From positions 1 through 50,189 of IMG/VR virus record IMGVR_UViG_3300032265_003847: a stretch of DNA of 50,189 bases, one strand, 5' to 3'. The notes beneath the pieces are model-generated. The model saw only the letters and a program-made list of their open reading frames with translations. It did no database searches and had not been told where the DNA came from. Shown here one piece after another: positions 2,435-24,031 of this stretch (position 1 is the first letter of the stretch; each line of letters begins with the position of its first letter). This DNA comes from a virus. The translations under genes and the position numbers were made by a program.

Positions 2435-3043
2435 TTATTTTATTAGATTCTTAATTAAATCTTGGCATCTGCCTGGTTTATGGACCTTTACAAATATGTT
2501 GGTAGCTTCAACAACATTACTCATAGTATTTAATTTTATATTAAATTCTTTGCTTCCGAGCATGCCTTCATTTAATAAATCTTGCCAATAATTAACAACA
2601 TTAAATGTATAATCAAGAACTTCCAGGTCCATATCATTAAATATACCGAATGTTGCATCGCTAAGCTTTCCTAAAGTTTCAAAATTGACTTTTTGGTCAA
2701 ACATTCTAAATGTTTTTGGAGTTAAAGTTCTAATGTGTGTATAGTCATCATAAAAAAGATCGCATCTATGATGAGGAACAACGATACTCCATTCTGCTTG
2801 ATCTGAGCTTATTCTATACATTTCTTTAAGAATAGCAGTGAACTTTCTAGGGGATTCTCCCAGATGTTCTAAAATATTATTTGCAGTTATTTTATCAAAA
2901 AAATTATCTTCCCAAGGATAAGGAGTGTTTTCTAAATCTACAACTTCATCTGGGTTGCACCTGGGACTCATATCTACATTCCAGTGATCATTTAATTTAG
3001 CAAACCCACAACCCATGTTCAATTTCTTATGTTCTGGTGTCAT
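2435..3043 (-). CDS. Class I SAM-dependent methyltransferase (Methyltransf_11-like)
   Basis: The 202-residue product begins with a SAM-binding motif I (LNMGCGFAKL, residues 8-17). An acidic VDM follows as the end of beta-2, then the VVDLEN segment, and NILEHL (residues 56-61) as the post-motif found in Methyltransf_11 enzymes. Its start codon overlaps the stop of the upstream glycosyltransferase (ATGA), so the two are probably translationally coupled. The substrate cannot be read from the sequence; position at the end of a glycosyltransferase series suggests methylation of a sugar or sugar-bearing protein. Confidence 0.8.
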   Translation of the reverse strand: MTPEHKKLNMGCGFAKLNDHWNVDMSPRCNPDEVVDLENTPYPWEDNFFDKITANNILEHLGESPRKFTAILKEMYRISSDQAEWSIVVPHHRCDLFYDDYTHIRTLTPKTFRMFDQKVNFETLGKLSDATFGIFNDMDLEVLDYTFNVVNYWQDLLNEGMLGSKEFNIKLNTMSNVVEATNIFVKVHKPGRCQDLIKNLIK

Positions 3044-3843
3044 TCTTTTTGTTCCTTATACATGTTAAATAATTCTTGCCAATCTTTTACAAAAAAACTA
3101 ATATCTTTTTGACATCCAAGATGAACAGCCAAGGTTCCTAAAGGCATAAGCATTATGACTTCTGATTTTTGCCAAACATTACTTATGGTATTTCCTTCCC
3201 AAGCTCCTTGCTCTGTTCCTATTTTGTCTAACTTATCAAATTCTTCACTATATTTCTTGATCAAGCTTACAGGAACCATAAAACTTTCATGAGTAAACCA
3301 TGTTGTTCTATAATATCGGTCTGGTCCTGGCAACACCACGCATTTATCAACATATGTGCTATTAAACATATTTTGAGGATGGTAATACATTTGATTGAAA
3401 TCTTGTGGGAAAAGACCAATAATATTTCTTGGAAACAATTGTGAAAAATATTCCCAAGATTCTATCATTTTGAATATGCTATCAGGATAATGCAAATAAT
3501 CATCTTCAACCAAATAAACCAAATCTTCATCAGGTAAATTTTTTATATATTCATATTGAACTTTTACCGAATATCTTGATTTTTGCTTTGGATTAAGATT
3601 GTCTTCATCTCTAGGTTCTAGAAAATTAAAAGTAGCTTTTGGAGCTATTTCTTTTAGTTTATTTCTAGTTTCTTCTGTGCTGTTATCGTCAATTATATGA
3701 AGTTGAAATTTAGATATTTCTGGGTTTTCTATAGATTGAACTAGACTTTTTACGCATGCATAAATGCATTCGTCTTTAGGAACTATCCTATCTCCTTGAA
3801 TACTTTTTTTATCACAAGTTCTTAGTACTATATTTAATTTCAT
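3040..3843 (-). CDS. Glycosyltransferase-like protein (GT2/GT-A-like)
   Basis: The start is taken at the ATG overlapping the sulfotransferase stop (ATGA) rather than at an in-frame TTG 15 bases upstream, giving 267 residues. The N-terminus has the GT-A pattern: a first strand LNIVLRTCD, then LHIIDDNST (the nucleotide-binding DD), and later LVYLVEDDYLHYPD with an EDD that fits the metal-binding acidic motif. It resembles the N-terminal half of the two-domain gene at 5680-7098 (LQIIDDHS, VYFAQDDYMH), suggesting duplication within the cassette. Donor and acceptor are unknown. Confidence 0.7.
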   Translation of the reverse strand: MKLNIVLRTCDKKSIQGDRIVPKDECIYACVKSLVQSIENPEISKFQLHIIDDNSTEETRNKLKEIAPKATFNFLEPRDEDNLNPKQKSRYSVKVQYEYIKNLPDEDLVYLVEDDYLHYPDSIFKMIESWEYFSQLFPRNIIGLFPQDFNQMYYHPQNMFNSTYVDKCVVLPGPDRYYRTTWFTHESFMVPVSLIKKYSEEFDKLDKIGTEQGAWEGNTISNVWQKSEVIMLMPLGTLAVHLGCQKDISFFVKDWQELFNMYKEQKE

Positions 3844-4634
3844 ATCCACGCATCCCAAAAAATTTCTCTATTATACTGTTCGAACAAATTCAAACCAAGA
3901 TATTCAACGCAATTAACAGTGGTTTTATCTAATTTTGGTTTGATTTTATGAAGCCCAGGTAAACTATGACTCAAATCATTGTATTTTTCATTTTGTTCTA
4001 TGTGCTCATAGTCATGATCAAAACTTGGCAATTCAAAAAATTCATAAATACGCTTTGTTTGACTTTTCGGACTATTGCAAAATCTATTATAATCAATAAA
4101 TAACAATCTGTCTAAGTATCCCATTGTTATAGCATCTTTCATCATAGCGTGAGCTATTCCAAGAGGTCCGGCTGGTCCTGCATAATATAAGCATCTTCCT
4201 GCTATTGTAGCTCCATCTGCTCCCATTTCGGCTGGAAGCAAATGCATAGGATTATTTTTTCTAAGCTTTTCAAAGCTAGAAAGTATTTCTGCTGGGTTTC
4301 TTACTGGGCACAGTATCTTTACTTTCTCCCCCAGAACAGCTTCTAATAAAGGAATTCGGCTAATCCACATTCGGTCTTTATCAAAAATAATCGGCTTGTC
4401 TGTTCCTTCGTGATAGTTTTGTAAAATGCCACGTAAAACATTAGCCTTTGCTTTTTCATTAGAAAATTCTTTGTTGGCTTCGACATTATCCCAATTTGAA
4501 TATATGCTATTAAAGCAAACGGCTAATGAACTAACTGGCTCTGCATGAACTTGCGGATTTTGTCTCAAGATACATTGAATCATAGTAGATCCTGATCTTG
4601 GAAGTCCTGCGACAAAATACATTTTCTTCTTCAT
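3840..4634 (-). CDS. Sulfotransferase (PAPS-dependent family)
   Basis: The 264-residue product opens with FVAGLPRSGSTMIQ (residues 7-20), the 5'-phosphosulfate-binding loop of sulfotransferases. A typical 3'-phosphate-binding strand follows further on (ILCPVRNPAEILSS). The family moves sulfate from PAPS to hydroxyls of sugars or proteins. The start overlaps the upstream stop as TAATG. Within a glycosyltransferase series the likely acceptor is a phage-made glycan or tyrosine/sugar on a virion protein; this is inference. Sulfotransferases are uncommon in phages. Confidence 0.8.
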   Translation of the reverse strand: MKKKMYFVAGLPRSGSTMIQCILRQNPQVHAEPVSSLAVCFNSIYSNWDNVEANKEFSNEKAKANVLRGILQNYHEGTDKPIIFDKDRMWISRIPLLEAVLGEKVKILCPVRNPAEILSSFEKLRKNNPMHLLPAEMGADGATIAGRCLYYAGPAGPLGIAHAMMKDAITMGYLDRLLFIDYNRFCNSPKSQTKRIYEFFELPSFDHDYEHIEQNEKYNDLSHSLPGLHKIKPKLDKTTVNCVEYLGLNLFEQYNREIFWDAWI

Positions 4635-5674
4635 TAATTTTCCTTTTTTAAATTAAATTTTTCTACTAAACAATTTTCAACTTCTTCAAAAGTTTCGTCC
4701 CAATTGCTGAATTGTTTTTGTCTGAATACTCTAGTGGTTTCAGGATACCATGGACTATGTTGATCTCCACAAGCCCAAACATGATATGGAAGTATTGGAA
4801 CAATTACCCATGTTGGAAGACCCATTGCAGCACTAAGATGTGCTACGCTTGTACAGCTAGTAATCAATAGGTCAAGATTCATAAGGGCAGCACAGGTATC
4901 TTCCCAACTTATTAATATATGTTGCAAGTCATTTATACCCTCGGGCAATTCTCTTGTATCTGTGTCTCTTTGAAAACTATACAGGCTTATTTGATCTTTA
5001 TACTTAGAAAGATTTATTAATTTTTCTGGTGGAAATATTCTAAATTGCTGGTGTTCGAATAATGGACTTCCGCTCCATCTTATTCCTATTTTTGGCTTAT
5101 CTCCTTTTATTATTTCTTTCCACAAAGGTATGCTTAATGGATTTGCAAATATGTAAGGTTCTCTAGGCAGCGTTTCAAATGTGTGACCAAAAATCCAACT
5201 TGTGCTAAATCCAGGTATCCAGTAATCGTGTCTTGTTGATGATACTTGACGAATAGTAATACATTCACTAACTCCGGGACACCTAGAAAATATGCCATGA
5301 AGTCTAGGATCACAGCATAATATGCATTTTGCTCCTCTTTTAACAATTTCTTTGGCTGATCTTGCATAAATCATCTGATCGCCAAAACCACCTTCTAAAT
5401 TTATTATAACAACTTTGTTTTCAAGACTGTCTTCTTGATTCCATATTGGTTTTTTAGACGCAATCTTGCTATCTCCATAAACATTTAAAAACCTTCCACA
5501 TTCAAGATTTTTAAAACCACCTTGCAAGTCGCCTTGATTTATTAAAAACCAACCTCTGTTAAAACAGTGTCTATAATCATTAGGGTTATCTGCTTCCATT
5601 TTTTCGCTCAATTTCCAAGCCTCCTCAAATCTTCCTCGTATCATTAAATTTAATTGTTGGTCTATCGGGTGCAT
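4634..5674 (-). CDS. TPR-linked GT9-like glycosyltransferase
   Basis: In this 346-residue protein, residues 1-60 form a tetratricopeptide-like region (GRFEEAWKLSEKMEADNP, then HCFNRGWFLINQGDLQGGF). The remainder resembles GT-B transferases of the GT9 / TPR-transferase type. Recognisable parts are an NLEGGFGDQMIYARSAKEI strand-loop-helix, KIGIRWSGSP, and a C-terminal donor-site block TSCTSVAHLSAAMGLPTWV followed by SPWYP. There is no Shine-Dalgarno, and the gap to the upstream stop is 5 bases. The sugar is unknown. Confidence 0.7.
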   Translation of the reverse strand: MHPIDQQLNLMIRGRFEEAWKLSEKMEADNPNDYRHCFNRGWFLINQGDLQGGFKNLECGRFLNVYGDSKIASKKPIWNQEDSLENKVVIINLEGGFGDQMIYARSAKEIVKRGAKCILCCDPRLHGIFSRCPGVSECITIRQVSSTRHDYWIPGFSTSWIFGHTFETLPREPYIFANPLSIPLWKEIIKGDKPKIGIRWSGSPLFEHQQFRIFPPEKLINLSKYKDQISLYSFQRDTDTRELPEGINDLQHILISWEDTCAALMNLDLLITSCTSVAHLSAAMGLPTWVIVPILPYHVWACGDQHSPWYPETTRVFRQKQFSNWDETFEEVENCLVEKFNLKKEN

Positions 5675-5679
5675 ATTTA

Positions 5680-7098
5680 TTAAAGTAAATAACTAGAAAT
5701 TTTACTTCCATAATAGGATTCTAAACTCTTTTCTATAAGAGTACAATTTTCTAAATTTCCTAAAACTGCGACTATATCAAAATTAACTGTATAGACCTTA
5801 TTTGAAAATTTACAAAAGTCTAAAACTTGCTTCATAAGCTTTGGAGTAAACCCAATTTTATGCATCATTCCATTCACTCCAGATTTAGTAAATTCTCTAT
5901 GCCCGTATATAATGTCTAAACTTGTTATAGGTCCGCAAGGACTTTCATATAAAGTTTCATTTATATCATTTTTAATATAATCTGCTGTTTTAACTAAATT
6001 TGGAACCATAATAATTCCAACTCCGTCATCTTTTAATATTCTTTTAATTTCTGAAAACGCAACTGGAAGTTCGTGCCAAAAAATATGTTCAATAATATGA
6101 CTAGCCCAAACGCTATCCAAGCTTTTTGAAGGAATGTTACTCATATCTGTTACACTTGCTACTATATCTGGATTTGATTCTTTACAAATATCTAATTTTA
6201 TTTCTTTATAATTTTTAAAATAATCAAATTCTAATTTTGCTTTGTTTGCTCCAATATTTAAAAACTTTTTATCATTTTCTTCAAACAAACTTTCAACATT
6301 GTTTTCTTTATCTCCTAAAGAGTCCCAAAGCGGAATATAATCTACAAACGGATCTTTTTCTGTTTCATATTGCATATGAAAAGCGAGGCTTGGAATTGGA
6401 CTAAACAAACAATATTCTCTTTGTTGAAAAAGTTTATTTATAGTGTCGTCTTCCATTTTATTATCTATTTTATGACAGCCCATAGCATAAAATAAATCAA
6501 ATTCTTTATTTAAAACAGAATGGTGAACCATAAAAGAAAATGCTGTGGCGTAGTTTTGTCTCCAATGTCTTTTTTTGCCATGTACAATTCTCACAGGATG
6601 TAGATTTACATCTGCGTATCTGTACGGGTCATTGAATGGATATATGCATAGAGGTTTATCTAATTTAGCAGACCATTGGTAGAAAAATTCTACCATTTCC
6701 TCTATTGCATTTGCTTCATGCATATAATCATCTTGAGCAAAATAGACTAATTCTTTTCCATAATCTCTTCCATATTGATAGCAGGCTAGCATGCTTGCAG
6801 ATATTCCATTTTTATTTAAATTTGTAAGACCAACTTTAAAAAGACATTTATCTATATCTTTTTTTAATAATTTTAAATAATCTTCATCACTATGATCATC
6901 AATTATTTGAAGTTCAATTTCAAAATTTGGAGCGACTTTATAAAAATTATTTAAAGTGTTGATTAAACTTCGGACGCATCTTTTTGAAGTCTCTAGCTTA
7001 CTCGCACCTGTATATCTTTTCTGTTCTGAAGATACATAGCCTTCATAAACATGATTATCGCCTTTTGAATGAGTTTGCAAAACAACTAATAAATTCAT
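5680..7098 (-). CDS. Bifunctional glycosyltransferase (GT-A) - SAM methyltransferase
   Basis: This 472-residue protein has two domains. Residues 1-265 are GT-A-like: LQIIDDHSDE near 64-73 and YFAQDDYMH near 119-127 as the acidic metal motif. Residues 275-440 are a methyltransferase: FLNIGANKAKL (279-289), LDICKES, and a WASHIIEHI segment typical of Methyltransf_11. Fusion suggests that transfer and methylation act on the same glycan. The start overlaps the preceding stop (ATGA). Substrates are unknown. Confidence 0.72.
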   Translation of the reverse strand: MNLLVVLQTHSKGDNHVYEGYVSSEQKRYTGASKLETSKRCVRSLINTLNNFYKVAPNFEIELQIIDDHSDEDYLKLLKKDIDKCLFKVGLTNLNKNGISASMLACYQYGRDYGKELVYFAQDDYMHEANAIEEMVEFFYQWSAKLDKPLCIYPFNDPYRYADVNLHPVRIVHGKKRHWRQNYATAFSFMVHHSVLNKEFDLFYAMGCHKIDNKMEDDTINKLFQQREYCLFSPIPSLAFHMQYETEKDPFVDYIPLWDSLGDKENNVESLFEENDKKFLNIGANKAKLEFDYFKNYKEIKLDICKESNPDIVASVTDMSNIPSKSLDSVWASHIIEHIFWHELPVAFSEIKRILKDDGVGIIMVPNLVKTADYIKNDINETLYESPCGPITSLDIIYGHREFTKSGVNGMMHKIGFTPKLMKQVLDFCKFSNKVYTVNFDIVAVLGNLENCTLIEKSLESYYGSKISSYLL

Positions 7099-8345
7099 AT
7101 TTTCTCAAAAATTAATAAGGTGTTTCTGAACCAATAACAATCATCTTCAATCACACTTCTTGCATTAGATGTTTCGCTAGATAAAAATTTAAAACTTTTT
7201 TGCTCTAAAATGGTTATTACTTCTTTATTTTCTAAACAATTAACGTGACCATGTCCAGGCTGATCTGGCACAGCCCAAGATAATATAAGATATTTTTTAC
7301 AATTATTTGAAATATTATTTATGTAAACATCCATGTATTGTAGTGGAATATGTTCTCCAACTTCTAATGATATAATATTTCCTTTTATAGGCAAATCAAT
7401 AGGAATTGTTAGATCATGTTTTTTAATATCTTCAAAAACTTTTTTATCAGGAATTTCTGCTTCGTATCCGGTTAATTTATCGAATCCATTTTCTTTTAAT
7501 TTTTCCAGATAATTTCCAAGTCCACATCCAAAATCATAAATTTGCACATCTATTTGATTTTTACTTTTTAGAAAATTGTAAATCCAACATGCCAACTCTG
7601 GACTGTGTGCGTGATGATCATGAGCAGTCTTTCCATTCCAATAACCGGTATCTGATATATCGGTTACTTTTATATTATCAATTCTTGTTGTTTTATAGTT
7701 GTGTTCTGCTCTTTTTTCTATAGTTGTTTCGCTTTGTCCGTCAAAAGCATAACCTCCAGCTTGATGCATTGGAAAAATATCGGCTCTTATAAACTTATCG
7801 GCAGATGTGTGCAATCCATATTTTATTGCGTGTGATAATAGATTTTTTGCTACTGCCGGATCTATTGCGTATGCATGAGTTCTTAATATAAAATGATTAT
7901 TAGGACCATCTGTTCCGTGTGGAGGTGTTGGATACATTTTCCAACCATTAACTTGTTCAGCACATCCCAAATAAGAAATAGAATTATACATTCCATGGTT
8001 TAAGTAAGGCTGAACCATGACAGCGTCATGCTCTAGAATTACTATTGGCTTGTCTATTAGCGTACACTTTGCCCAAAGACTTATATGAGATAATAAACAA
8101 CAAACTTCTTGTTTTGTTAGATGGTGATTAGTTATTTTAATCATATCCATAATTAAATTATGGCTACTTGGAAATATTATTTCTTCTCCTGTGCCGTCGT
8201 AAGCATCCCATAATTCGAAGGGCATCCCTACTTTTTCACAACTTTCACAACATCTTTTTGCTAAATTTTCAGATAGTTCATGATTTTTAATTCTTATTAT
8301 ATAAGCTTTGTCTACTGATGTGTCATATGTGTAGAACAATCCCAT
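7095..8345 (-). CDS. Bifunctional GT25-like glycosyltransferase - methyltransferase
   Basis: This is a 416-residue protein. Residues 10-210 follow the GT25 (LPS/procollagen-type) layout: AYIIRIKNHELSENLAKRC, then FELWDAYDG, LLSHISLW and VILEHDAVM, where EHD (105-107) is the acidic motif, and later THAYAIDPAVAKNL. Residues 262-416 are a class I methyltransferase with IYDFGCGLGNYLE (267-279) and an LEVGEHIP segment. It is the second glycosyltransferase-methyltransferase fusion in a row. The start lies one base after the upstream stop. Confidence 0.72.
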   Translation of the reverse strand: MGLFYTYDTSVDKAYIIRIKNHELSENLAKRCCESCEKVGMPFELWDAYDGTGEEIIFPSSHNLIMDMIKITNHHLTKQEVCCLLSHISLWAKCTLIDKPIVILEHDAVMVQPYLNHGMYNSISYLGCAEQVNGWKMYPTPPHGTDGPNNHFILRTHAYAIDPAVAKNLLSHAIKYGLHTSADKFIRADIFPMHQAGGYAFDGQSETTIEKRAEHNYKTTRIDNIKVTDISDTGYWNGKTAHDHHAHSPELACWIYNFLKSKNQIDVQIYDFGCGLGNYLEKLKENGFDKLTGYEAEIPDKKVFEDIKKHDLTIPIDLPIKGNIISLEVGEHIPLQYMDVYINNISNNCKKYLILSWAVPDQPGHGHVNCLENKEVITILEQKSFKFLSSETSNARSVIEDDCYWFRNTLLIFEKI

Positions 8346-8346
8346 T

Positions 8347-9129
8347 TCAAAATCCTAAATTTTTACTTCTTACAAAATTTAAATCATAAGTTGTATGCCC
8401 GATATCACAATCTTTATTAAATGGTTTTTCATAAGGAGCACACATTCTCCAATGATCGCCCCATTTTTTATGCAAATATTCAATATTGCTATTGTTACTA
8501 AAATCTAACTTTTCTTTTAAACCAGGTTCAGACTTTTGAGTCTGACTTCCTTCTTTGTAATATTCGTTTTTATTTCCAAGTCCATGATAATAATTAGAAT
8601 TTAATTGAGTTATTTTTTTAATTGGCTTGTTAACAAATCTCATGATGTAATCACTATCTTCTGTGTATGCGGGATACAAATTTTCATCAAACAGTCCATA
8701 ATTTTGGACTACAAAATCTCTCATTAAAAATAAATCCCAACTTCCAATATTAAAATCTCCACTATGACCATGGACCATACCAACCTCAGAATCATTCTCT
8801 ATAGAATTAACCATCTCGTTTAAAAAGCCAATACTAAATGCAATATCATCATTGCAAATAATCCAATAAGGAGATTTCATATAACATTTTATAATTAAAT
8901 TCCAAGCACCCCCTACGCCAATATTGGCAGGCATATGACAAACAGTTATTTTGTCAACAAATTTATGTTTTAATTTACATAAATTATCTAATTCTTCATT
9001 TAATTCTCCTCTACCATTATTATTTATAATTATAAAATTTTCTGTTGGGTAATCTATACTCATTAATAGTCTGTTGACCCAATAAGAGCTATTGACTACT
9101 GCTGTTCCTATAACAGGTATCTTATTCAT
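8347..9129 (-). CDS. Family 2-like glycosyltransferase
   Basis: The 260-residue product fits the GT-A fold of family 2. It has an N-terminal strand IPVIGTAVVNSSYWVNRLL, IIINNNGRGE as the nucleotide-binding turn, NIGVGGAWNLIIK (the ANxGxxxAxN-type helix), and YWIICNDDIAFSIGF, whose NDD is the metal-binding motif. A later acidic cluster (AYTEDSDYIMR) fits the catalytic base region. It overlaps the upstream gene by 8 bases and has an upstream GAGGA ribosome-binding site. Confidence 0.78.
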   Translation of the reverse strand: MNKIPVIGTAVVNSSYWVNRLLMSIDYPTENFIIINNNGRGELNEELDNLCKLKHKFVDKITVCHMPANIGVGGAWNLIIKCYMKSPYWIICNDDIAFSIGFLNEMVNSIENDSEVGMVHGHSGDFNIGSWDLFLMRDFVVQNYGLFDENLYPAYTEDSDYIMRFVNKPIKKITQLNSNYYHGLGNKNEYYKEGSQTQKSEPGLKEKLDFSNNSNIEYLHKKWGDHWRMCAPYEKPFNKDCDIGHTTYDLNFVRSKNLGF

Positions 9130-10063
9130 TTTCTGTCCTCATATTTGATTTTTCTTTTTCTAATTTTGGGTCATTTACATCTATTGCATTTTCACAAAAT
9201 TTACATAAATCGAAACAAGAAAGAGGCTTTGGAATTAACTCTTCATATTCCTGGGTGAATAGATTGCCAAGGATGTGTTTCAATCCATAATCCATACAAC
9301 ATAAAGAAACATCTCCATTTGGCAATAAAACATTGTGATACAATCTTTCTTCGCAATTACAAGTCATAGATTTTTCACCATGATATATGGATTTAAATTT
9401 ATTTTTTAAGTTTATTAATTCGGGTTTTAGTATTGCTTCTCCCAACAAATTTCCCCCTCGACTCCACATATATTCAGCGGCGTTATGGTCGGGAGTTTCA
9501 AATATGTGTTTTATTTGATTATTAACATTTGGACCCATGCTCATGGTGCTAAAAAATTGGATCTCATGCATAACTGATTTAAAATATTCTAAAACTTCTA
9601 AGTATTTTTTAGATATAGGATGCTTAGCTAAATATTCATCATCAGGAAGATGTAAAACAAAACCACCATTAGGATTTCCAGCATAAGGAATATTTTTAAT
9701 TTTTTCTACATCTTCTGTATTCATTCCTATTCCTGTTGTAAAAGCAGATATAGGGTGCCCTTTTTCATGAGCATATAAAAGCATATCAGAACAATGTTTA
9801 TTCAGCCAAGGTTCAGTAAATCCTGCAAATGTTATTCTTATCTCTTTTGGTATCTTATCTAATAAGATTTTAAAATTATCTAAACTTAGATATCTTTCGC
9901 CTTGATAAACTTTTTGAAGTGTTTTTTGTGGGCAAAAAACACAGTCTACTATGCATCCTTGCTTAGGAACACAGGTTGTAATCTCCATTGTAGGAGCTAT
10001 TGAGAACTTATATTTTGGTAAATATACGTTTGGAAATACTTTTATTTTATTTTTAAAATCCAT
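9122..10063 (-). CDS. Radical SAM enzyme with Cys-rich C-terminal region
   Basis: The 313-residue product has a cluster motif C-x3-C-x2-C at residues 37-44 (GCIVDCVFCPQ) that would hold the SAM-cleaving 4Fe-4S cluster, after a strand MEITTCVP. A GFTEPWLNK segment follows, as in the GGEP region of the family. The C-terminal third has more cysteines (TCNCEE, SLCCMDYG, CFDLCKFC) around NVLLPNGDVSLCC, resembling the SPASM auxiliary-cluster region of peptide- or sugar-modifying enzymes. The reaction is unknown; placed among glycosyltransferases it may modify a sugar or a protein acceptor. Confidence 0.8.
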   Translation of the reverse strand: MDFKNKIKVFPNVYLPKYKFSIAPTMEITTCVPKQGCIVDCVFCPQKTLQKVYQGERYLSLDNFKILLDKIPKEIRITFAGFTEPWLNKHCSDMLLYAHEKGHPISAFTTGIGMNTEDVEKIKNIPYAGNPNGGFVLHLPDDEYLAKHPISKKYLEVLEYFKSVMHEIQFFSTMSMGPNVNNQIKHIFETPDHNAAEYMWSRGGNLLGEAILKPELINLKNKFKSIYHGEKSMTCNCEERLYHNVLLPNGDVSLCCMDYGLKHILGNLFTQEYEELIPKPLSCFDLCKFCENAIDVNDPKLEKEKSNMRTENE

Positions 10064-10077
10064 ATTAAAATTCTCGA

Positions 10078-11427
10078 TTAATTAAAGAAATACATATGAA
10101 ACAGTCTGCTCGATGGTATGTCCCATCCAAAATATGCTGATGGGGCATGAATCATCCCCCCATCAAATATAACTAGTCTGTTGTAAACATTCCCTACAGT
10201 ATCAACCATTTCGTATGGTGTGCCATCTAAAAATGTTTTTTGATTAAAACATTGCACAATATCAGGATGAGAGTTGTGTCTAACTCCTGTTTTTTTGTGA
10301 GCATAAAAACTTGTGCCAGATTCATATGGAGCGTTTGGAGTTAAATAGACCATGCCAGCCCAAAGTGTTTTTCCGTTTTCTTCATCGCAATGATAAACAA
10401 GTGGAGTTCCAGCTTTGCATGTCTGAAACCTTCCATTCATTGATTGCTCTTCCCATCTAATAATTTTTCTACCTATTATTTCTTCAAATCTCTCTTTTAC
10501 ACCTTCGAAGAAAAATTGTTTTCTTGTCCTCATTCCAAGGTAGCCTTGGTCATCAAAGTACCATTGCTGAAGAGCAAAATCTCTAACTGAGTCTGGATCT
10601 TCATAAAAGTTATCTACAACAAAAAGTCTTTTATCTAAATTGGATTTAATTTTAAATTTATTTGTATTTATCGAGCCCCAGTTTTCATTGGGACTATTGT
10701 CAACATAATATTCATTATTCATCTTTATTCCTTCATTGTTAACATAAATCATTATACAAGAATAATAATCAATAAACCAGTCTGTCCATAAATTTTGTTT
10801 AATATCAATATTGTCCATGCTATAAACATTTAAGTTTTTATCTGGTATCTTGGCTAAAAAATTATCTCTAAAATTTCTAAATTTATTCTTTAGTTCAAGA
10901 TTGTGAAAATGCCATTCACCTGCAATTTTTTTAACATTGTTAAAAATCCAACTTAAATTATTATCATCAAAAAAATAATACTCACCACCTTCACAGTCAA
11001 TCTTAAGAAAGTCTATTTTTTCTATGTTATAGTCTTTTAACAAACTATTAAAAGTAATACCATTCACGCTACAATTAATTGACCACATATCCATAGAGTC
11101 AGGATTGTAAATTCCTTTCCAATCAACAATTCCATTTTTTTCTAAAAGACCTGCGTTTATACATGTGATGTTTTTAAAGTTTAAATTTTTATTTAATACT
11201 TTAAATAAATCTACGTGTGGTTCTAAACAAAATATATGTTTTGGTTTTTTATCTAAAACAGAAAAAGAAAAAGGTCCAACACTAGCACCTATATCGACAA
11301 CAACATCATTCTCTTCAACTGTAAAGAATTTTTCATAAACTTTATCTGTGAGAATTTCTTTTTTAACAGTTGATAAAAATTCTTGATTTTTTTCTAGTAG
11401 TCCCCAATCAAAATTATTATTTAACAT
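10078..11427 (-). CDS. Fusion of FkbM-type methyltransferase and 2OG-Fe(II) dioxygenase domain
   Basis: This 449-residue protein has two parts. Residues 1-225 are an FkbM-like methyltransferase: VVDIGASVGPFSFS (43-56), CLEPHVDLF, and FLKIDCEGGEYYFF (140-153). Residues 265-449 match the 2-oxoglutarate/iron dioxygenase layout: LFVVDNFYEDPDSVRDFALQ, then YHCDEEN with His346 and Asp348, an AGTSFY-like strand, and GGMIHAPSAY with His427 followed by Arg441. These give the HxD...H facial triad and the 2OG-binding arginine. The family includes prolyl and other hydroxylases. The gene has a 64-base upstream spacer and a weak AGG site, so a separate promoter is possible. Confidence 0.72.
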   Translation of the reverse strand: MLNNNFDWGLLEKNQEFLSTVKKEILTDKVYEKFFTVEENDVVVDIGASVGPFSFSVLDKKPKHIFCLEPHVDLFKVLNKNLNFKNITCINAGLLEKNGIVDWKGIYNPDSMDMWSINCSVNGITFNSLLKDYNIEKIDFLKIDCEGGEYYFFDDNNLSWIFNNVKKIAGEWHFHNLELKNKFRNFRDNFLAKIPDKNLNVYSMDNIDIKQNLWTDWFIDYYSCIMIYVNNEGIKMNNEYYVDNSPNENWGSINTNKFKIKSNLDKRLFVVDNFYEDPDSVRDFALQQWYFDDQGYLGMRTRKQFFFEGVKERFEEIIGRKIIRWEEQSMNGRFQTCKAGTPLVYHCDEENGKTLWAGMVYLTPNAPYESGTSFYAHKKTGVRHNSHPDIVQCFNQKTFLDGTPYEMVDTVGNVYNRLVIFDGGMIHAPSAYFGWDIPSSRLFHMYFFN

Positions 11428-11491
11428 TTTAAACGCCTGTTCCTAACGTCACTGCTGATATTTTATCATAGTGCAAATTTTATCAGAAATG

Positions 11492-12679
11492 CTAGTCTAT
11501 TTTTAAATCCCATGTTCTAATATACTCTGTTTTGTATAACATTTTTTCGTTTGGTTTGATTTCTGGGAAGGAGGTTTCGTCTTTTGTTATTATAAAATTA
11601 AAATTATATGAATCATCTTTAATAAACTCACAATAAAATTCTCCTATTAATTTCTCTTTATTTACAGATTCATAAAAACGAGTTTCATCAAAAGTTATTT
11701 TAATTTTAAACAAACCTTTATTAAATTGTATTTTTTCTAATTTATAATTTATTATATCTAAAAATTGAGATTTTATATCTTTGTCTATGTCAAAAAATAT
11801 AATTTCTTTATTAATATTTTTAATAATATTTTTAATAGATTTTATTGTGTTTTCTATCACCTCTGCATCACTTAAATATACTTTCCATGTATGGTGTTTA
11901 TGTGCATCATAATCTGGCTCTTTTCTAAAGGAGTCAGGAGCGTTTTCTCTAGCACCATTATCTGTTATCCTACTTGAAAAGAATGGACCAACTCCATAGC
12001 ATTCACTTAAATTTAACATTGTTACATTTTTTAATTTTGATAATATACTTAATACGGATTGATCATGTCTATGGGCTAAGAATTCACTTGATTGCTCTAA
12101 GTCATCTTCATCATTAACAAGATTGTAATTATTTTCTATGACTAATTCTAACCACTCTTTAACAAAATTGATTGTGAACTCAGATTTTTTACAAATAAAA
12201 ACACCAGCTTCAATTTGTCCAGAATTTAAAAATTCTTCATTATTATCAAGATTAAATCTTTTAAGAACTCTCATTTTTTGAAGTTTTTTTTCTTGATACC
12301 ATGGAGGATCTCCTTGACAACAAAAAGTAATAACAGGTTTATCACTACTATTTAATATATTTAGATACTCTGCAAGTCTATCTTCTTTATGATTTAGAAT
12401 AGATCCTCCAGAGTCAATATAAAATAAAAAATCTCCTTCATCAATCTTAGACAATTGATTTAGTATTATGTAGGGCTTCCATATCCAATAGCCCCAACCT
12501 CTAGAATTATTAACAAAATTTTTATGTTCATCTAAAAATTCTTTTATTGTATCAGGTGAATGAATAATAATATCGTCAAACCAATTAGTTGATTCTGCCT
12601 CCTTTCTGAGTCTTAATTTTTGATATTTATAAAGTATATCATCTCCAAAAGAAATTAAATGTTTTTTCATTTTTTGCAT
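11492..12679 (-). CDS. Predicted capsule-type glycosyltransferase (WKP motif)
   Basis: With the first ATG as start (an in-frame TTG lies 18 bases upstream), the product is 395 residues. Residues 55-110 contain GWGYWIWKPYIIL and GDFLFYIDSGG, the WxWKP and acidic DSG pattern seen in bacterial glycosyltransferase-like proteins of capsule and LPS clusters. The later AGVFICKKSE and HRHDQSVLSIL fit the acceptor half. Residues 270-395 show no family I recognise. Donor sugar is unknown. Confidence 0.6.
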   Translation of the reverse strand: MQKMKKHLISFGDDILYKYQKLRLRKEAESTNWFDDIIIHSPDTIKEFLDEHKNFVNNSRGWGYWIWKPYIILNQLSKIDEGDFLFYIDSGGSILNHKEDRLAEYLNILNSSDKPVITFCCQGDPPWYQEKKLQKMRVLKRFNLDNNEEFLNSGQIEAGVFICKKSEFTINFVKEWLELVIENNYNLVNDEDDLEQSSEFLAHRHDQSVLSILSKLKNVTMLNLSECYGVGPFFSSRITDNGARENAPDSFRKEPDYDAHKHHTWKVYLSDAEVIENTIKSIKNIIKNINKEIIFFDIDKDIKSQFLDIINYKLEKIQFNKGLFKIKITFDETRFYESVNKEKLIGEFYCEFIKDDSYNFNFIITKDETSFPEIKPNEKMLYKTEYIRTWDLKID

Positions 12680-12687
12680 TGTAATTT

Positions 12688-13362
12688 TCACTTCCAATCA
12701 AAATCAGGCTTATATCCATTCATTATATTAAAATTATAGCCACTGTGGTATGCCAAAACTTCTGAGTTAGAAAAAAGAGCGTTAGTTTCAAATGTTGTAT
12801 TTTCTTTTATATCTTGAACATTCAATCTTTTGTCTGCGTATGTAATCTTATCTTTTAAAACATGATTCAAAACGCATTGATCATAATATTTTTCTTTATA
12901 ACTATAAAAATTATTGCATGCTTCATCAAAATATTTTTTTGAATTTCTTGAAACCACAAAGAATCCACTATTAAAATATGTTCCAGGTTTCATATTATAT
13001 TCTAATTCTAGCTCTTTGACTTCTCTTGCATAAGATCTATCTTTGACAAAGTACATTTTGTCAGGATCTGGGCAATATTCAAATATATTAAAAGGTCTAA
13101 CTGGTCTCCAATCTGCATCGAAATAAACTATTCTATCAAGATCTGGGTATATATCGAAAATAAATAACTTTACTGTGGCGGCTCGAATGCTATTTAACCA
13201 ATGATCTTTCTTAAACCCTAAATGATAGTGATTGTTGTCTATAATCCTAACTTCTAAATTTAAATATTTTTTTACAAAATCTCCTGACCATTGGGCAAAT
13301 TTATAAAAATCTTCATATATTCCAGGAGGATTTATACCGACTGTTACTGCTGCTGTTTTCAT
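12688..13362 (-). CDS. GT8-like glycosyltransferase
   Basis: The 224-residue product has the GT8 (glycogenin / LPS galactosyltransferase) signatures: RAATVKLFIFDIYPDLDRIVYFDADWRP, in which DAD is the DxD metal site, and later YFNSGFFVVSR. The first lines (MKTAAVTVGINPPGIYEDF) form the opening beta strand. A late AYHSGYN may carry the third metal ligand. A 9-base spacer separates it from the upstream gene. A second GT8-like gene lies at 36410-37096. Confidence 0.75.
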   Translation of the reverse strand: MKTAAVTVGINPPGIYEDFYKFAQWSGDFVKKYLNLEVRIIDNNHYHLGFKKDHWLNSIRAATVKLFIFDIYPDLDRIVYFDADWRPVRPFNIFEYCPDPDKMYFVKDRSYAREVKELELEYNMKPGTYFNSGFFVVSRNSKKYFDEACNNFYSYKEKYYDQCVLNHVLKDKITYADKRLNVQDIKENTTFETNALFSNSEVLAYHSGYNFNIMNGYKPDFDWK

Positions 13363-13371
13363 ATGATTATC

Positions 13372-14550
13372 TTATTTTTTACTTTCAAAAAAAGTTAAAT
13401 TATTAATAACAGAAACTCTAAACTCTTCTTTCATATTATAATTATTTAATAGATCTTTAAAAATGTCCTGAGACTCTTTGCATAAACCGCACCACCAACT
13501 ACTAACAGCTTTTTGAAATAATAAGGCATAATTTCCAGAATAACCAACATCTGTATTCAATGGTTCCGAATTTAAGTCAGCAAGATTGTGTCCTAAAGAT
13601 GCTATTGTATAGCATTCTTGCCAACTTCCATCTTTATTTTCTTTTTCATAAAATCTACTTAAAAGATAATATGCTTCTGGTCTTTTTGGAAGAATAGCTA
13701 AAGCGTGAAGCAACAATCCTTTAACTGTAAAATTCCTACAGCCTTGTTTTTCAAAACATAGAGCTGATCTTAGTAAACACTCGTATTGAATAAGTTCATC
13801 TGATGTTCTTTCTGCTGCCCTGAGATAGTAGGAGACTGCACTCGCTGTTTGTCCCATCGATTCATAATAACTGCCTAAATTATAGTTTTTATTATAATTT
13901 TCAGGATCTTCAACATAATCATAAATTAGTTTGTTGAACATAATATCTTGTAATATGTCTACAAACTCAGGATTTAATTTAAATTTAGATAAAAAAGAAT
14001 TAACAGAAATTAAATTGAGCCATTCAATTTTAAATTTAACAAAATTTTCCCAAGTTAAATTTAATTTACTTGGTAGTAGCTCTTGAGATCCTTTTTTAAT
14101 AATTCCGCAGCCATAGTCTGTATCTATTACAAACATTTCTAAATCAGCCCTAGTCTGTCTTAAATTTACAAACGCTTTCCAACAATCCCCATTCCAAATA
14201 CCTCCCCTATAAGGAATTGTTTGATGCTCTTCTTTTTCTGGGTTCATGTCATGACATATGATATATCCGCCATCATTTAAAAATAATAAAGAATTTATAA
14301 TATCTCTGCTCACCTGGTCAGCGTGATGCAAACCATCAATTAAAATAACATCAAATTTTTCTTTATTTTCTTTAAAAAAATCATCTGATGTCTTGTGAAC
14401 AGTAGCCTTGGAACTTAAGTCGGGATCTACTCCAACTTTATTTTCACAAATTACACTCTTAAAATTGTATCCTTCATAAACTCCAATTTCTAAGTAATTT
14501 TTTGCATTTATTTTTTTAATTATAAAGTTAATTAATTCAGATTTATTCAT
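13372..14550 (-). CDS. Class I methyltransferase with C-terminal TPR-like region
   Basis: The start is set at the ATG that overlaps the upstream stop by 8 bases and follows AGAGGA; a longer in-frame reading exists. The product is 392 residues. Residues 15-180 form a Methyltransf_24-like domain: NYLEIGVYEGYNF (motif I), VGVDPDLSS, FDVILIDGLHHADQV and GGYIICHDMN. Residues 210-392 look helical and TPR-like (YNLGSYYESMGQTASAVSYYLRAAE, AYYLLSRFYEKENK). Similar methyltransferase-TPR proteins occur in bacterial glycan clusters. The target is not evident. Confidence 0.7.
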   Translation of the reverse strand: MNKSELINFIIKKINAKNYLEIGVYEGYNFKSVICENKVGVDPDLSSKATVHKTSDDFFKENKEKFDVILIDGLHHADQVSRDIINSLLFLNDGGYIICHDMNPEKEEHQTIPYRGGIWNGDCWKAFVNLRQTRADLEMFVIDTDYGCGIIKKGSQELLPSKLNLTWENFVKFKIEWLNLISVNSFLSKFKLNPEFVDILQDIMFNKLIYDYVEDPENYNKNYNLGSYYESMGQTASAVSYYLRAAERTSDELIQYECLLRSALCFEKQGCRNFTVKGLLLHALAILPKRPEAYYLLSRFYEKENKDGSWQECYTIASLGHNLADLNSEPLNTDVGYSGNYALLFQKAVSSWWCGLCKESQDIFKDLLNNYNMKEEFRVSVINNLTFFESKK

Positions 14551-15499
14551 TGTTTTCCTCTGGTAGGAGAAAGTTTTGAATTTTTTTATTTTCAAATATT
14601 TCTCTTGGCAATTTTTCTATTGGGTATTTTTTAATTAGTATGTTTCCTCTTCCAAGAACATCTTTTGTTTCTCCTTCTCTAGGTTGGTAGGAGAATATGA
14701 ATTCTTCTGTTTCTTTTTGAGATAAAGGATACATATTAGCAGACCAATTACTAGATATTTCTTTTATTAATTTTTCATCATTTATTTTTAAATGATCTAA
14801 TACGGGAGCAAGTGTTATTTCTGGATTAATTGTATCATAGTAATGGCTAAAAGATTTATATTTATTTAATCTGTTCGTGTTACTGCCCATCCAAGAAAAA
14901 TGCCAACCAGATTCTAACATATTATCATCTTCTAATATAAAAATATCTTGGTATTCTATTTTATTAAGATTAAATGCTCTAGACTCTCTTATTTCATTAA
15001 TAGAATAATTATTTAAATGTCTTTTCAAACAAAAGAATGGACTAGTCCAAAGTTTAGAGTTGCCGTTTTCTTCACATGTTTCTAAGTCTGCTCTGTACGT
15101 GAGAAAGGCTAAAGGAACTCTGAGGATGTTATTTGGATTTTTTTTTATAAAATTAACATATGTTAGAATTAATTGTGGATTAATAATCTCATCACAATCA
15201 GCCATAAAGCAAATATCATCTTCTTTTATAAGGTTTTTTGCAGCATTTCTTTGAGTTGTTTCTCTTTCCCATGAATTTCCGTTATCATGAATGGATAGGT
15301 CTACTTCTACTACGGTAATCTTACTGAAAGAGACATTCAACTCTTCTAGAGTCCTTTTGCATGTAAATTCTTTAAATTCTCCCGAGTGGGTTCTATTTGC
15401 ATCACATATTATAAATTTATCTACATGATCATAGAGCATTTTCATTCTAAGTTCTAATAATTCTTTTTCATTAAAATATAAAAAAACGTCTACTATCAT
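14543..15499 (-). CDS. GT17-family N-acetylglucosaminyltransferase-like protein
   Basis: The 318-residue product follows the GT17 pattern (family of beta-1,4-mannosyl-glycoprotein GlcNAc-transferase). It has MIVDVFLYFNEKELLELRMK, DHVDKFIICDANRTHSGEFK, then QRNAAKNLIKEDDICFMADCDEIINP, with DCDE as the acidic site, and SGWHFSWMG near residue 225. The start overlaps the upstream stop by ATGA. GT17 is a rare family in phages and here extends the GlcNAc theme of the window. The acceptor is unknown. Confidence 0.78.
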   Translation of the reverse strand: MIVDVFLYFNEKELLELRMKMLYDHVDKFIICDANRTHSGEFKEFTCKRTLEELNVSFSKITVVEVDLSIHDNGNSWERETTQRNAAKNLIKEDDICFMADCDEIINPQLILTYVNFIKKNPNNILRVPLAFLTYRADLETCEENGNSKLWTSPFFCLKRHLNNYSINEIRESRAFNLNKIEYQDIFILEDDNMLESGWHFSWMGSNTNRLNKYKSFSHYYDTINPEITLAPVLDHLKINDEKLIKEISSNWSANMYPLSQKETEEFIFSYQPREGETKDVLGRGNILIKKYPIEKLPREIFENKKIQNFLLPEENNE

Positions 15500-16458
15500 G
15501 ATAAAAACACTTCCTTAAATTTTTCTATAACATTTTTAGGAGAAAACATATCATTAAGATAATAAGTATCAAATGGATTGTTTTTTTCTATGTTTATTAG
15601 AATATCTAAAAGATCATTTTCATCCTTAAACTTATAACAATTATTATTCAAATAAACAAAATGATTTCTTCCTCCTAAAAAGTGAGAATTCTGTAACTGC
15701 TCATTATCATAGGTGATAATTTGTTTGTTTTTACAAGCAAATTCTAAAACAGCCAAACCAAACGTCTCTCCATAACTTCTAGCGTGGAGCATGGCATCAC
15801 AAGTATTTATAAATTCCACTTTTTTATCTAGATCTATTATAGGGTCTATAAATAGACATCTGTCATGGCTATAAAAAACTTCAGTATTAGCAAATAAAAA
15901 ATAAATATTTGATCTTTTTTCTATTGTTTTTTTAACACAGCTTTTAACAAATTCTAAATCAAAAGTATCATATCCTCCATATCTTCCAATTACAATCGAA
16001 TCTTTTGGTATAAATAATTCTTCTCTTAAATTTTTATCATGGTTTGGTAGATTGATCATATGTGGAACATATGGAATTTTGTTATTTTTAAACAACGTCA
16101 TATATTTTGAAACATATGCGTAAACATCACCATGGTAATTTATTGGATCACAAAAGAACACAGCATGTATTAAATTTCTGCAGTTTTGAAATTGTGTTCC
16201 ATCATTTAATCCAAACTTAATTGCATAAAAATTTTTTATATCTCTGGTGTCTATAATTTTTTGAACTTCGGACTTATCAGTATAATTAACAACTTCAAAT
16301 TGATCATTAAATTTATTTAATATTGTTTTGTTTTTAATATTTTTTACAACTATTATCGGCTTAATATTTAAAAACTCTCTACAATAATAAGCATAATCAT
16401 ACAGTGCTACCGAAGTCCCCCTTTCATTTAATTCATTTTCATGAAATATCATTTCCAT
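15496..16458 (-). CDS. GT4-like (GT-B fold) glycosyltransferase
   Basis: The 320-residue product carries the C-terminal GT4 donor-binding block: CDAMLHARSYGETFGLAVLEFACKN, with the E-x7-E arrangement around FGL. A VIGRYGGYDTFD segment precedes it, as at the domain junction. The N-terminus has NERGTSVALYDYAYYC, a glycine-rich entry loop. The first ATG overlaps the upstream stop by 10 bases; a second ATG 6 bases later would give the ATGA overlap common in this operon and may be the true start. Confidence 0.75.
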   Translation of the reverse strand: MEMIFHENELNERGTSVALYDYAYYCREFLNIKPIIVVKNIKNKTILNKFNDQFEVVNYTDKSEVQKIIDTRDIKNFYAIKFGLNDGTQFQNCRNLIHAVFFCDPINYHGDVYAYVSKYMTLFKNNKIPYVPHMINLPNHDKNLREELFIPKDSIVIGRYGGYDTFDLEFVKSCVKKTIEKRSNIYFLFANTEVFYSHDRCLFIDPIIDLDKKVEFINTCDAMLHARSYGETFGLAVLEFACKNKQIITYDNEQLQNSHFLGGRNHFVYLNNNCYKFKDENDLLDILINIEKNNPFDTYYLNDMFSPKNVIEKFKEVFLS

Positions 16459-17426
16459 ATAAAATTTTCTATAACACTCTCTGGAACTTTTAAAAGATAT
16501 GAAGCGTTATCTTGAAATCCAAATGTCATTAAAAAATAATCATCTTTTTTAGTCATGCCAATACAAAATTCAACATGTGCATTCATAAAATCAAAATCTT
16601 CTGAGTATTTCACTATGTTAAAATTTTTATCCCAAAATATAAATCTATGCCTATAAACAGCATCTTTTCTTCCTACTTCGCTATTAAAAAGATTTACTTC
16701 ATGTGTCACAGCTAAATATCCATTTTTCCAAGACAATATCTGAGATCCGCCTCTTAAATCCCTTGGAAGAGGAACAAAACTGCTCAATCTAACTGATTCA
16801 CAAGTTTTATTGTTAATATCAACTTTTACAACCTCTGTTGGATTTGACCACTTAATATAATGGTACGGTAAATCTAAAAAAGGCATCCAATTTTTTTCAC
16901 AATAAGAATTAGGATTATTAGGAGCAGGAATTCTAAATCGAGATGTTTCTTTAACACTATTTTCGGTGACTACGATTTCAGATAACTCCATTCTTCCTTC
17001 ACCGTTTGTTGTGGTATCTCTTCTGACTCCTGAGATGTATAATTTATTTTCCCATTGAAAAATTCTTGCATCTTCAAGACCAACAAAGTCCCACATAGGT
17101 AAATAAGTATCAAAAACTGAAGTGTCTATCTTATTAAATCTTTTTATTTTAAACTGGTCGTCTAATTCACAATAATAATTGGTTGTTCTTAGATGCATAT
17201 CTTGTTCAGGATGCACGTATGTTAATGGTCCAAATTGATGTTGAAATAATTTTGCTTCTGAGTGATAGAATGTATAATTTACATGTCTAATTACACAAAT
17301 TATTTTATTATCTAAAATAGAAATAGAAGGGTTCATCAATCCGGTGCCATTTGTAAGCTCGGATGGTATAATCAAAGGGTGTATTGATCCACCGTTTTTA
17401 ATAGCAAGTTTAGCAAAGTTATTCAT
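16449..17426 (-). CDS. Predicted five-bladed beta-propeller (GH130/GH43-like) protein, first gene of glycan cassette
   Basis: The 325-residue product is rich in short beta strands and Trp/Tyr. The segment MWDFVGLEDARIFQWENKLYISGVR resembles the EDxRI region of GH130 mannoside phosphorylases and related propellers. Other blade-like parts are NPSISILDNKIICVIRH and HVEFCIGMTKKDDYFLMTFG. Catalytic residues cannot be assigned with confidence, so it may be a sugar-binding or glycan-processing protein rather than an active phosphorylase. It is first behind a predicted promoter and divergent from the nucleotidyltransferase. Confidence 0.55.
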   Translation of the reverse strand: MNNFAKLAIKNGGSIHPLIIPSELTNGTGLMNPSISILDNKIICVIRHVNYTFYHSEAKLFQHQFGPLTYVHPEQDMHLRTTNYYCELDDQFKIKRFNKIDTSVFDTYLPMWDFVGLEDARIFQWENKLYISGVRRDTTTNGEGRMELSEIVVTENSVKETSRFRIPAPNNPNSYCEKNWMPFLDLPYHYIKWSNPTEVVKVDINNKTCESVRLSSFVPLPRDLRGGSQILSWKNGYLAVTHEVNLFNSEVGRKDAVYRHRFIFWDKNFNIVKYSEDFDFMNAHVEFCIGMTKKDDYFLMTFGFQDNASYLLKVPESVIENFIWK

Positions 17427-17448
17427 TGTTTTTTTTAAATACTAAACT

Positions 17449-17477
17449 AGTATAGTTTAAATAGAAGATAAATTCAA
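17449..17477 (-). promoter_or_regulatory. Predicted sigma-70-like promoter of the glycan cassette
   Basis: On the minus strand TTGAAT (17472-17477) and TATACT (17449-17454) are separated by exactly 17 bases, 23 bases before the ATG of the first cassette gene. The -35 box abuts the start codon of the divergent nucleotidyltransferase gene. The pattern fits a host RNA polymerase promoter; no experiment is implied. Confidence 0.5.
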
Positions 17478-18221
17478 ATGATCAAAAAAGGCGTAATACT
17501 AGCTGGTGGAAAGGGTAGCAGAATGCTACCTGTTACAAACAATATTAATAAACACTTACTTCCTGTTTATTCTAATTTTGGGGCTATTCCTATGATATAT
17601 TATCCTATATTTACTTTAGTCAAAAGTGGGCTAAAAGACATATTGATAATATCTTCAAAAGAACACTGTGGAAAAATAATTGAAAACTTAGGCGATGGAA
17701 CAGAATTTGAAGCAAATTTTACATATAAAATTCAAGATTTATCAAGAAAGGAACCTGGAATTGCTAGTGCTCTAGATTTATGTAAAAATTTTACAGAAAA
17801 AGATTCCTTTGCAGTTATACTTGGAGACAATTTTTTTGAGGATAGTTTTGAAACTGAGTTTCAAAAGTTTTGTGGTTTAAGCAAAGCGGCAATTTTTACA
17901 AAAGAAACAAATAATGCAAATCAATTTGGAGTTTATAGCAACGGTTTTATAGAAGAAAAACCAAAAGTTCCAAAAAGCAATTTAGCTGTAACTGGTTTAT
18001 ACTTATACACAAATCATGTCTATGAGGTAATTAAAAACATTAAACCAAGTGATCGTGGAGAATTAGAGATAACTGATGTTAATAATTTCTATTGTAGTCA
18101 AAAATCTTGTGGTGTTTTTAAAACAAATGGATTCTGGAGCGACATGGGCACCCCAGAATCCATTTGTAATACACAAAATTTTATAATTAAAAATAATTAT
18201 AAAATTTTCAATCACGCTTAG
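17478..18221 (+). CDS. Sugar-1-phosphate nucleotidyltransferase (RmlA-like)
   Basis: The 247-residue product starts with KGVILAGGKGSRMLPVT (residues 4-20), the nucleotide-binding signature of glucose-1-phosphate thymidylyl/uridylyltransferases. HLLPVYSNFGAIPMIYYPI follows (sugar-phosphate region), then FAVILGDNFFEDSF with the metal-binding aspartate, a GVYSNGFIEEKPK segment and NGFWSDMGTPESI near the end. It is shorter than usual RmlA (about 290), lacking part of the C-terminal helices. It would make an activated sugar (dTDP- or UDP-type) for the divergent transferase series. It converges with and overlaps the macro-domain gene by 14 bases. Confidence 0.85.
   Translation: MIKKGVILAGGKGSRMLPVTNNINKHLLPVYSNFGAIPMIYYPIFTLVKSGLKDILIISSKEHCGKIIENLGDGTEFEANFTYKIQDLSRKEPGIASALDLCKNFTEKDSFAVILGDNFFEDSFETEFQKFCGLSKAAIFTKETNNANQFGVYSNGFIEEKPKVPKSNLAVTGLYLYTNHVYEVIKNIKPSDRGELEITDVNNFYCSQKSCGVFKTNGFWSDMGTPESICNTQNFIIKNNYKIFNHA
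18123..18167. repeat. Perfect 15-bp inverted repeat inside the nucleotidyltransferase gene
   Basis: Arms acaaatggattctgg (18123-18137) and ccagaatccatttgt (18153-18167) are exact reverse complements around a 15-base loop. The arms encode the conserved TNGFWS...PESICN region, so the symmetry is kept within functional coding sequence. Confidence 0.9.
18175..18208. terminator. AT-only 15-bp perfect hairpin between convergent genes
   Basis: Arms aaaattttataatta (18175-18189) and taattataaaatttt (18194-18208) are perfect complements with a 4-base aaaa loop. The hairpin lies at the 3' end of the nucleotidyltransferase gene and ends at the stop of the convergent macro-domain gene. It could stop transcription from both sides, though it lacks G-C pairs, so terminator strength is uncertain. 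Confidence 0.5.
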
Positions 18222-18720: not shown

Positions 18721-18741
18721 TTTTAAACTCCAGTAAAGTGT

Positions 18742-18769
18742 ATTGTAGCAAATTTGCCGTTGTTTTCAA
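18742..18769 (-). promoter_or_regulatory. Predicted promoter of the macro-domain gene
   Basis: On the minus strand TTGAAA (18764-18769) and TACAAT (18742-18747) have a 16-base spacer, 21 bases upstream of the start codon. The same 10-mer ctacaataca occurs in the opposite orientation at 18789-18798, 8 bases before the protease start on the plus strand. The divergent genes may therefore share an element type. The plus-strand copy has no clear -35. Confidence 0.45.
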
Positions 18770-18806
18770 CACCGTATTTTTTGATTATCTACAATACATA
18801 CTCTGT

Positions 18807-23971: not shown

Positions 23972-24031
23972 AATGTTATAGTAGTTATTAAATTCCAAGC
24001 TTTTTTTTTAAATTTTTACTTATTTATTATA

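Follow-up and report, generated by a model that had tools for sequence, protein, structure and literature searches.

The stretch of DNA analysed here (the window) is the virus record IMGVR_UViG_3300032265_003847, 50,189 bases in length, and the element in question is a glycan cassette located on its minus strand. The cassette consists of 15 consecutive, tightly packed genes, most of which encode glycosyltransferases and methyltransferases, together with a radical-SAM/SPASM enzyme and a sulfotransferase. Intergenic gaps range from -53 to +64 bases, and neighboring genes overlap at 9 of the 14 junctions; if the gene at 13372-14595 starts at a later in-frame ATG, the longest overlap falls from 53 to about 8 bases. 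The base composition of the cassette is not distinct from that of the remainder of the window. The cassette is composed of two recurrent modules, A and B, joined in the window and in G016, and it probably decorates the tail adhesins of the phage itself. The features of the locus are as follows:

1-2379, minus strand: giant RCC1-repeat protein, cut by the window edge (Pfam RCC1/WD40_RLD)
2435-17426, minus strand: glycan cassette, 15 genes (open reading frame listing)
2435-3043, minus strand: methyltransferase, module B (Methyltransf_11, E 0.002, below cut-off)
3040-3858, minus strand: GT2-like glycosyltransferase (Pfam PF00535, E 5e-5)
3840-4634, minus strand: sulfotransferase, module B (Pfam Sulfotransfer_3, E 4e-14)
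4634-5674, minus strand: tetratricopeptide repeat (TPR) plus GT9/TibC-like glycosyltransferase (TPR-GT), core of module B (AlphaFold2, Foldseek)
5680-7098, minus strand: GT2-like plus methyltransferase fusion (Pfam; GT2 in the N-terminal half, E 6e-5)
7095-8345, minus strand: GT25 plus methyltransferase-like protein (Pfam PF01755, E 7e-13)
8347-9129, minus strand: GT2 glycosyltransferase, module A (Pfam, E 5e-8)
9122-10063, minus strand: radical SAM/SPASM enzyme, module A (Pfam)
10078-11427, minus strand: FkbM methyltransferase fused to DUF6445, module A (Pfam, NCBIfam)
11492-12697, minus strand: 'WKP' protein, possible glycosyltransferase, without family
12688-13362, minus strand: GT8 glycosyltransferase (Pfam, E 1e-9)
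13372-14595, minus strand: methyltransferase plus TPR protein, second core gene of module A (Pfam)
14543-15499, minus strand: GT17 glycosyltransferase (Pfam, E 8e-17)
15496-16458, minus strand: weak GT4-like glycosyltransferase (Pfam Glycos_transf_1, E 0.004, below cut-off)
16449-17426, minus strand: GH130/GT108-like propeller, first gene of the cassette and core of module A (AlphaFold2, Foldseek)
17427-17477, 51 bases: control region between the divergent genes, containing a small dyad and, on the minus strand, a weak sigma70-like site
17478-18221, plus strand: RmlA-like sugar-1-phosphate nucleotidyltransferase (NCBIfam, PDB)

This inventory bears out the preliminary description of the locus: packed genes for glycan enzymes of many families run in one direction close to a portal gene, and a sugar nucleotidyltransferase gene at 17478 diverges from them. 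Among the family names proposed there, GT17, GT8, GT2, GT25, the methyltransferases, the radical SAM enzyme and the sulfotransferase are supported by Pfam, while the GT4 call falls below the cut-off and the WKP protein has no convincing family. The GT9-like call finds no Pfam match but is recovered by structure, as the AlphaFold2 model of 4634-5674 matches GT9 enzymes. The product of 16449-17426, left unclassified in that description, is modeled as a GH130/GT108-type propeller.

The arrangement of the cassette is conserved in a contig from a separate metagenome, IMGVR_UViG_3300042946_001588 (hereafter G023), which is collinear with the window from 39663 across the portal, a protease gene, rmlA and all 15 cassette genes down to the RCC1 gene. 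Cassette proteins of the two contigs share 54-95% amino-acid identity in identical gene order, and the recurrence of 15 genes in one order in an independent contig is far above chance. The portal (phrog_213) marks the window virus, an aquatic phage, as T4-like; as this portal is approximately 51% identical to that of a 595-kb uncultured phage record (LR756511), the window probably represents one part of a large genome. In LR756511, the nearest large genome, none of the cassette genes was found in the 49 kb around the portal.

Gene content, gene order, conservation, fusions, folds and adjacency to tail genes were observed directly. The core of module B, the TPR-GT, has no Pfam match and no PDB sequence match, and its AlphaFold2 model (pLDDT 90.7) is matched by Foldseek to GT9 heptosyltransferases and to TibC (hits WaaF, 3tov and TibC; E 6e-7 to 2e-4, TM about 0.5). 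A search with this protein returned 31 loci; since many contigs in IMG/VR are related, some counts are given after collapsing by identity, as indicated. By motif, 25 of 29 evaluable loci have an RCC1-repeat open reading frame no more than two genes upstream of the TPR-GT, or 27 when two contig-end fragments are included; after collapsing at 90% identity the figure is 17 of 18 evaluable independent groups. The sole true exception carries other large tail-like proteins in the RCC1 position. Background frequencies of RCC1 reading frames are 0/1029 in seven long contigs and 5/1216 in the first locus set. Similarly, the reciprocal search from RCC1 recovers a TPR-GT neighbor at most loci where the RCC1 array is genuine.

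The usual order of these genes is tail fiber, tail fiber assembly chaperone, RCC1, TPR-GT, sulfotransferase and methyltransferase, with the sulfotransferase directly behind the TPR-GT in many loci. In the window the module B trio adjoins the RCC1 gene at 1-2379, which comes last in transcription order and whose full-length counterpart in G023 encodes 1752 amino acids. Additionally, the TPR-GT is fused to a methyltransferase in several phages and to a sulfotransferase in one (L188). One candidate mechanism, N-glycosylation of RCC1 by an HMW1C-like enzyme, was rejected, as enrichment for N-x-S/T sequons is inconsistent and GT9/TibC enzymes are the leading fold match. A supposed precedent for RCC1 with glycosyltransferases in prasinoviruses was likewise set aside, as 'RCC1' there is a culture-collection code and not a protein.

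The same neighborhood is found in cultured and named relatives. BUCT-ZZ01, whose host is Synechococcus elongatus PCC 7942, encodes a tail fiber, a tail assembly chaperone, an RCC1 protein 51% identical to that of the window and a fused TPR-GT and methyltransferase. S-SRM01 carries a long tail fiber, two RCC1 genes, a TPR-GT, a 2-oxoglutarate (2OG) oxygenase, a third RCC1 gene, a sulfotransferase and a glycosyltransferase, and the marine virus AG-345-E08, whose sequence derives from a single amplified cell, has an unbroken series of RCC1, TPR-GT, RCC1, sulfotransferase, GT25-like and FkbM-like genes. The phages just named are precisely those that supply the best RCC1 matches in phage records (at least 32% identity). 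More distant phage RCC1 proteins, such as those of LIBA6276 and LIS04, also lie in tail or baseplate blocks, and in phage GAP32 an RCC1-domain protein was identified as a structural virion protein by mass spectrometry (PMC5259590). In all, cassette-type enzymes stand beside tail fiber genes in dozens of uncultivated phages and in a few cultured ones.

Module A is led by the propeller encoded at 16449-17426, which has no Pfam (including GH130), NCBIfam or PDB sequence match. Its AlphaFold2 model, built with 51 homologs (pLDDT 88.9, pTM 0.89), is a five-bladed propeller matched by Foldseek to GH130 beta-mannoside phosphorylases and GT108 Leishmania mannosyltransferases at 10-14% identity and TM 0.5-0.6. 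GH130 enzymes carry an EDPR motif; the candidate catalytic Asp of the propeller family, the invariant D119, lies in a GLEDAR motif that resembles it in sequence. Relatives number at least 598 stretches in IMG/VR, compared with 5 of 84,980 prokaryote species (in each case on a small contig from a metagenome bin) and 3 of 50,697 phage records; judged by these sequence searches, the family is virus-restricted. In fold, its closest viral matches include proteins of Pithoviruses and of other giant viruses; some of these are uncharacterized, and some carry a fused fucosyltransferase, LicD or pyruvyl transferase domain.

Among 84 propeller loci, a homolog of 13372-14595 is present in 82, usually immediately next to the propeller. 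Homologs of the FkbM/2OG (57), GT2 (45) and radical-SAM (31) genes follow this pair in reordered and fused forms. The DUF6445 part of 10078-11427 has a probable 2OG-Fe(II) oxygenase fold, with an HxD..H motif spotted by eye. The upstream neighbors of module A are most often tail fiber and collagen-like minor tail PHROGs, and its downstream neighbors include tail sheath and terminase genes. Collagen-like reading frames are nearer to module A than to typical genes in seven long contigs, in one of which the module A copy lies at the contig end (Fisher combined p 1.7e-4), and in the isolate DSL-LC02 module A sits between collagen-like and tail fiber genes. The link between module A and collagen is nonetheless weaker than that between module B and RCC1. 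Upstream of module A, late-type TAAATA promoters occur in 27 of 66 cases in the sense direction versus 7 antisense, and sigma70-type promoters in 16 of 66 versus 1.6 expected; timing is therefore not uniform, and late-only expression was rejected as a general rule.

Of the remaining cassette genes, 3040-3858 is a paralog of the N-terminal half of the 5680-7098 product (28-29% identity). The WKP protein at 11492-12697 has no convincing family match in Pfam or NCBIfam and only short matches to unrelated proteins in a PDB search, and among viral contigs its homolog occurs only in the close relative. Pfam and NCBIfam searches of the 15 cassette proteins revealed no flippase, no polymerase or exporter and no initiating transferase for a lipid carrier, and none of the proteins contains a convincing membrane segment. 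The only sugar-nucleotide synthesis gene at the cassette is rmlA, whose product matches NCBIfam at E 3e-57, below the equivalog cut-off, and glucose-1-phosphate thymidylyltransferases in the PDB. The core of the control region, CTATACTAGTTTAG, is kept in G023. A small CTAWACTAGTWTAG-like dyad between the divergent genes is also present in the relative and may be an operator.

Taken together, these data suggest, with a probability of roughly two in three, that the cassette is a virion-decoration operon acting in the cytoplasm on the tail adhesins of the phage itself. Its enzymes would build modified glycans on long repetitive adhesins before or during assembly, the modifications being methyl and sulfate groups and possibly hydroxylation or radical chemistry. 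The acceptors, linkage, sugars, reaction order and benefit we infer as follows. Firstly, module B (4634, 3840 and 2435) would act on the adjoining RCC1-propeller protein, which is proposed as its acceptor from adjacency: the TPR part would grip the acceptor, the GT9/TibC-like part would add a sugar to Ser/Thr, and the sulfotransferase and methyltransferase would sulfate and methylate that sugar. Secondly, module A (16449, 13372, 10078, 9122 and 8347) would act likewise on collagen-like tail fibers. Accessory glycosyltransferases would extend the chains and RmlA would supply the donor pool; the likely purpose would be changed receptor binding or shielding of the fibers.

A broader proposal, which we put forward tentatively, is that aquatic T4-like phages possess phage-specific protein glycosylation in which RCC1 is served by the TPR-GT9 trio and collagen-like fibers by propeller, 2OG-oxygenase and GT25, such that exchangeable acceptor-enzyme cassettes would generate a variable chemical code on fibers. 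In animals and in mimivirus, collagen is hydroxylated and then glycosylated, and the collagen-like fibers would be modified in the same sequence. The pieces are of known kinds and the conserved pairing of fiber and enzymes appears to be undescribed: no earlier description was found in the open-access literature, outside which most subscription journals lie.

Several observations weigh against virion decoration. The virion glycan is a prediction from gene content, and neighborhood cannot prove substrate. The structural matches of the cassette enzymes reach only TM 0.5-0.6, N-sequon enrichment in RCC1 proteins is not consistent, and in some RCC1 phages (LIBA6276, LIS04) no glycan enzymes are annotated in the vicinity. 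The window itself shows no collagen-like gene, one being found beyond the window extent in G023, and with mixed promoters before module A its expression is not simply late.

The foremost alternative is remodeling of the host surface, in which the lipopolysaccharide (LPS) O-antigen or capsule of the infected cell would be altered so as to block adsorption of rival phages. Such a role has been assigned in a review to similar cyanophage clusters (PMC7824862), and it would accommodate the presence of RmlA and many glycosyltransferase families; the sigma70-like promoters before some module A copies would permit early expression, and flippase and polymerase could come from the host. We nevertheless regard it as unlikely, given a cassette devoid of lipid-carrier, flippase, polymerase and export genes and of convincing membrane segments, the tight pairing with RCC1 and tail fiber genes, and a leading enzyme that is abundant in viral stretches and nearly absent from cellular genomes. 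The same lack of export and lipid-carrier genes, the ties of both halves to tail fiber genes elsewhere and the distribution of the leading enzyme speak against the earlier impression that the locus resembles an LPS/capsule locus more closely than it does a phage operon.

Decidedly improbable is a mixed case in which module B decorates RCC1 and module A does otherwise, for example by making sugar reserves of the phosphorylase type or free oligosaccharides. The looser module A-collagen link and the use of the GH130/GT108 fold by phosphorylases are consistent with such a division; the neighbors of module A are still mostly tail genes, however, and the two modules are found joined. Modification of DNA, a known role of some phage glycosyltransferases as cited in PMC12619734, has very little to recommend it despite two DNA methyltransferase genes elsewhere in the window: in the cassette, Pfam identifies neither hydroxymethylpyrimidine genes nor genes for modifying bases, the sulfotransferase and TPR proteins fit poorly, and the neighbors are tail genes rather than replication genes. 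Finally, the idea that a bacterial LPS locus was joined to a phage during assembly, a chimera raised in the preliminary description for 17.4-18 kb and suggested by the unusual gene mix, is refuted by the independent, syntenic G023, which shares both borders with identical junctions and the whole cassette and so answers the point without read coverage.

The virion-decoration operon proposed here resembles, and departs from, several known systems. As with TibC/TibA and AAH/AIDA-I of the bacterial autotransporter heptosyltransferase (BAHT) family, whose enzymes attach heptose, donated by ADP-heptose, to Ser, a dedicated cytoplasmic enzyme of GT9 fold is encoded beside a repetitive adhesin; unlike those enzymes, 4634-5674 carries an N-terminal TPR domain, the adhesin is an RCC1-propeller tail protein rather than an autotransporter, and a sulfotransferase and a methyltransferase are added. 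TibC has a conserved four-cysteine iron site. Because this cysteine motif is missing in 4634-5674, where C274 alone is invariant among 25 homologs, the protein was not classed as a BAHT member. The propeller fold of 16449-17426 is common to GH130 and GT108, from which the protein differs as a member of a virus-restricted family with giant-virus fold relatives.

Linkage of glycosyltransferase genes to virion structural genes is shared with phage virion glycosylation. In mycobacteriophages, phage glycosyltransferases are thought or shown to act on the phage's own structural proteins (Freeman et al., 2023, as cited in PMC12619734). As that system is described there, capsid and tail tube termini are modified with few genes, whereas here a 15-gene cassette is tied to RCC1 and collagen-like fibers and the gene complement predicts additional sulfate and methyl chemistry. 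Clusters of diverse glycosyltransferases and sugar-nucleotide genes are likewise found in large T4-like cyanophages and jumbo phages, where they have been assigned to the host surface (PMC7824862); here neighbors, fusions and missing export genes point to the virion.

Glycan clusters of large phages have so far mostly been interpreted as host-surface disguise. If virion decoration is correct, host range, fiber stability and decoy escape in many aquatic phages would hang on a post-translational code that could not be read from fiber sequences alone. An adhesin gene paired with dedicated enzymes offers a testable substrate, for which BUCT-ZZ01, S-SRM01 and DSL-LC02 are cultured carriers, and the contrast between the many propellers in IMG/VR and the three in phage records indicates a widespread trait nearly invisible in isolates.

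Elsewhere in the window, the portal gene (20603-23998) carries two intein-like insertions, the second of which (residues 589-875 of the window protein) is missing from the portal of the close relative, such that its presence varies between near kin. Thr-Pro-rich, mucin-like linkers, the longest with about 36 residues of PTPTATPT repeats, occur in seven proteins (18624-20591, 25421-27205, 28796-30334, 31980-33497, 39663-40385, 40584-41204 and 46177-48333) and are possible O-glycan acceptors. Adjoining a Thr-Pro-rich gene and outside the cassette, 33600-34847 encodes a PF11397 'GlcNAc' glycosyltransferase (E 1e-76) with relatives in only three phage records; the PF11397 family includes enzymes acting on protein hydroxyproline. 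The genes at 27465-28406, 35332-36339 and 37070-37915 encode subtilase, IMP dehydrogenase/GMP reductase-type and patatin-like proteins, respectively, and the product of 36410-37096, with no Pfam match, has a GT8-like look (YLDCDTFIF).

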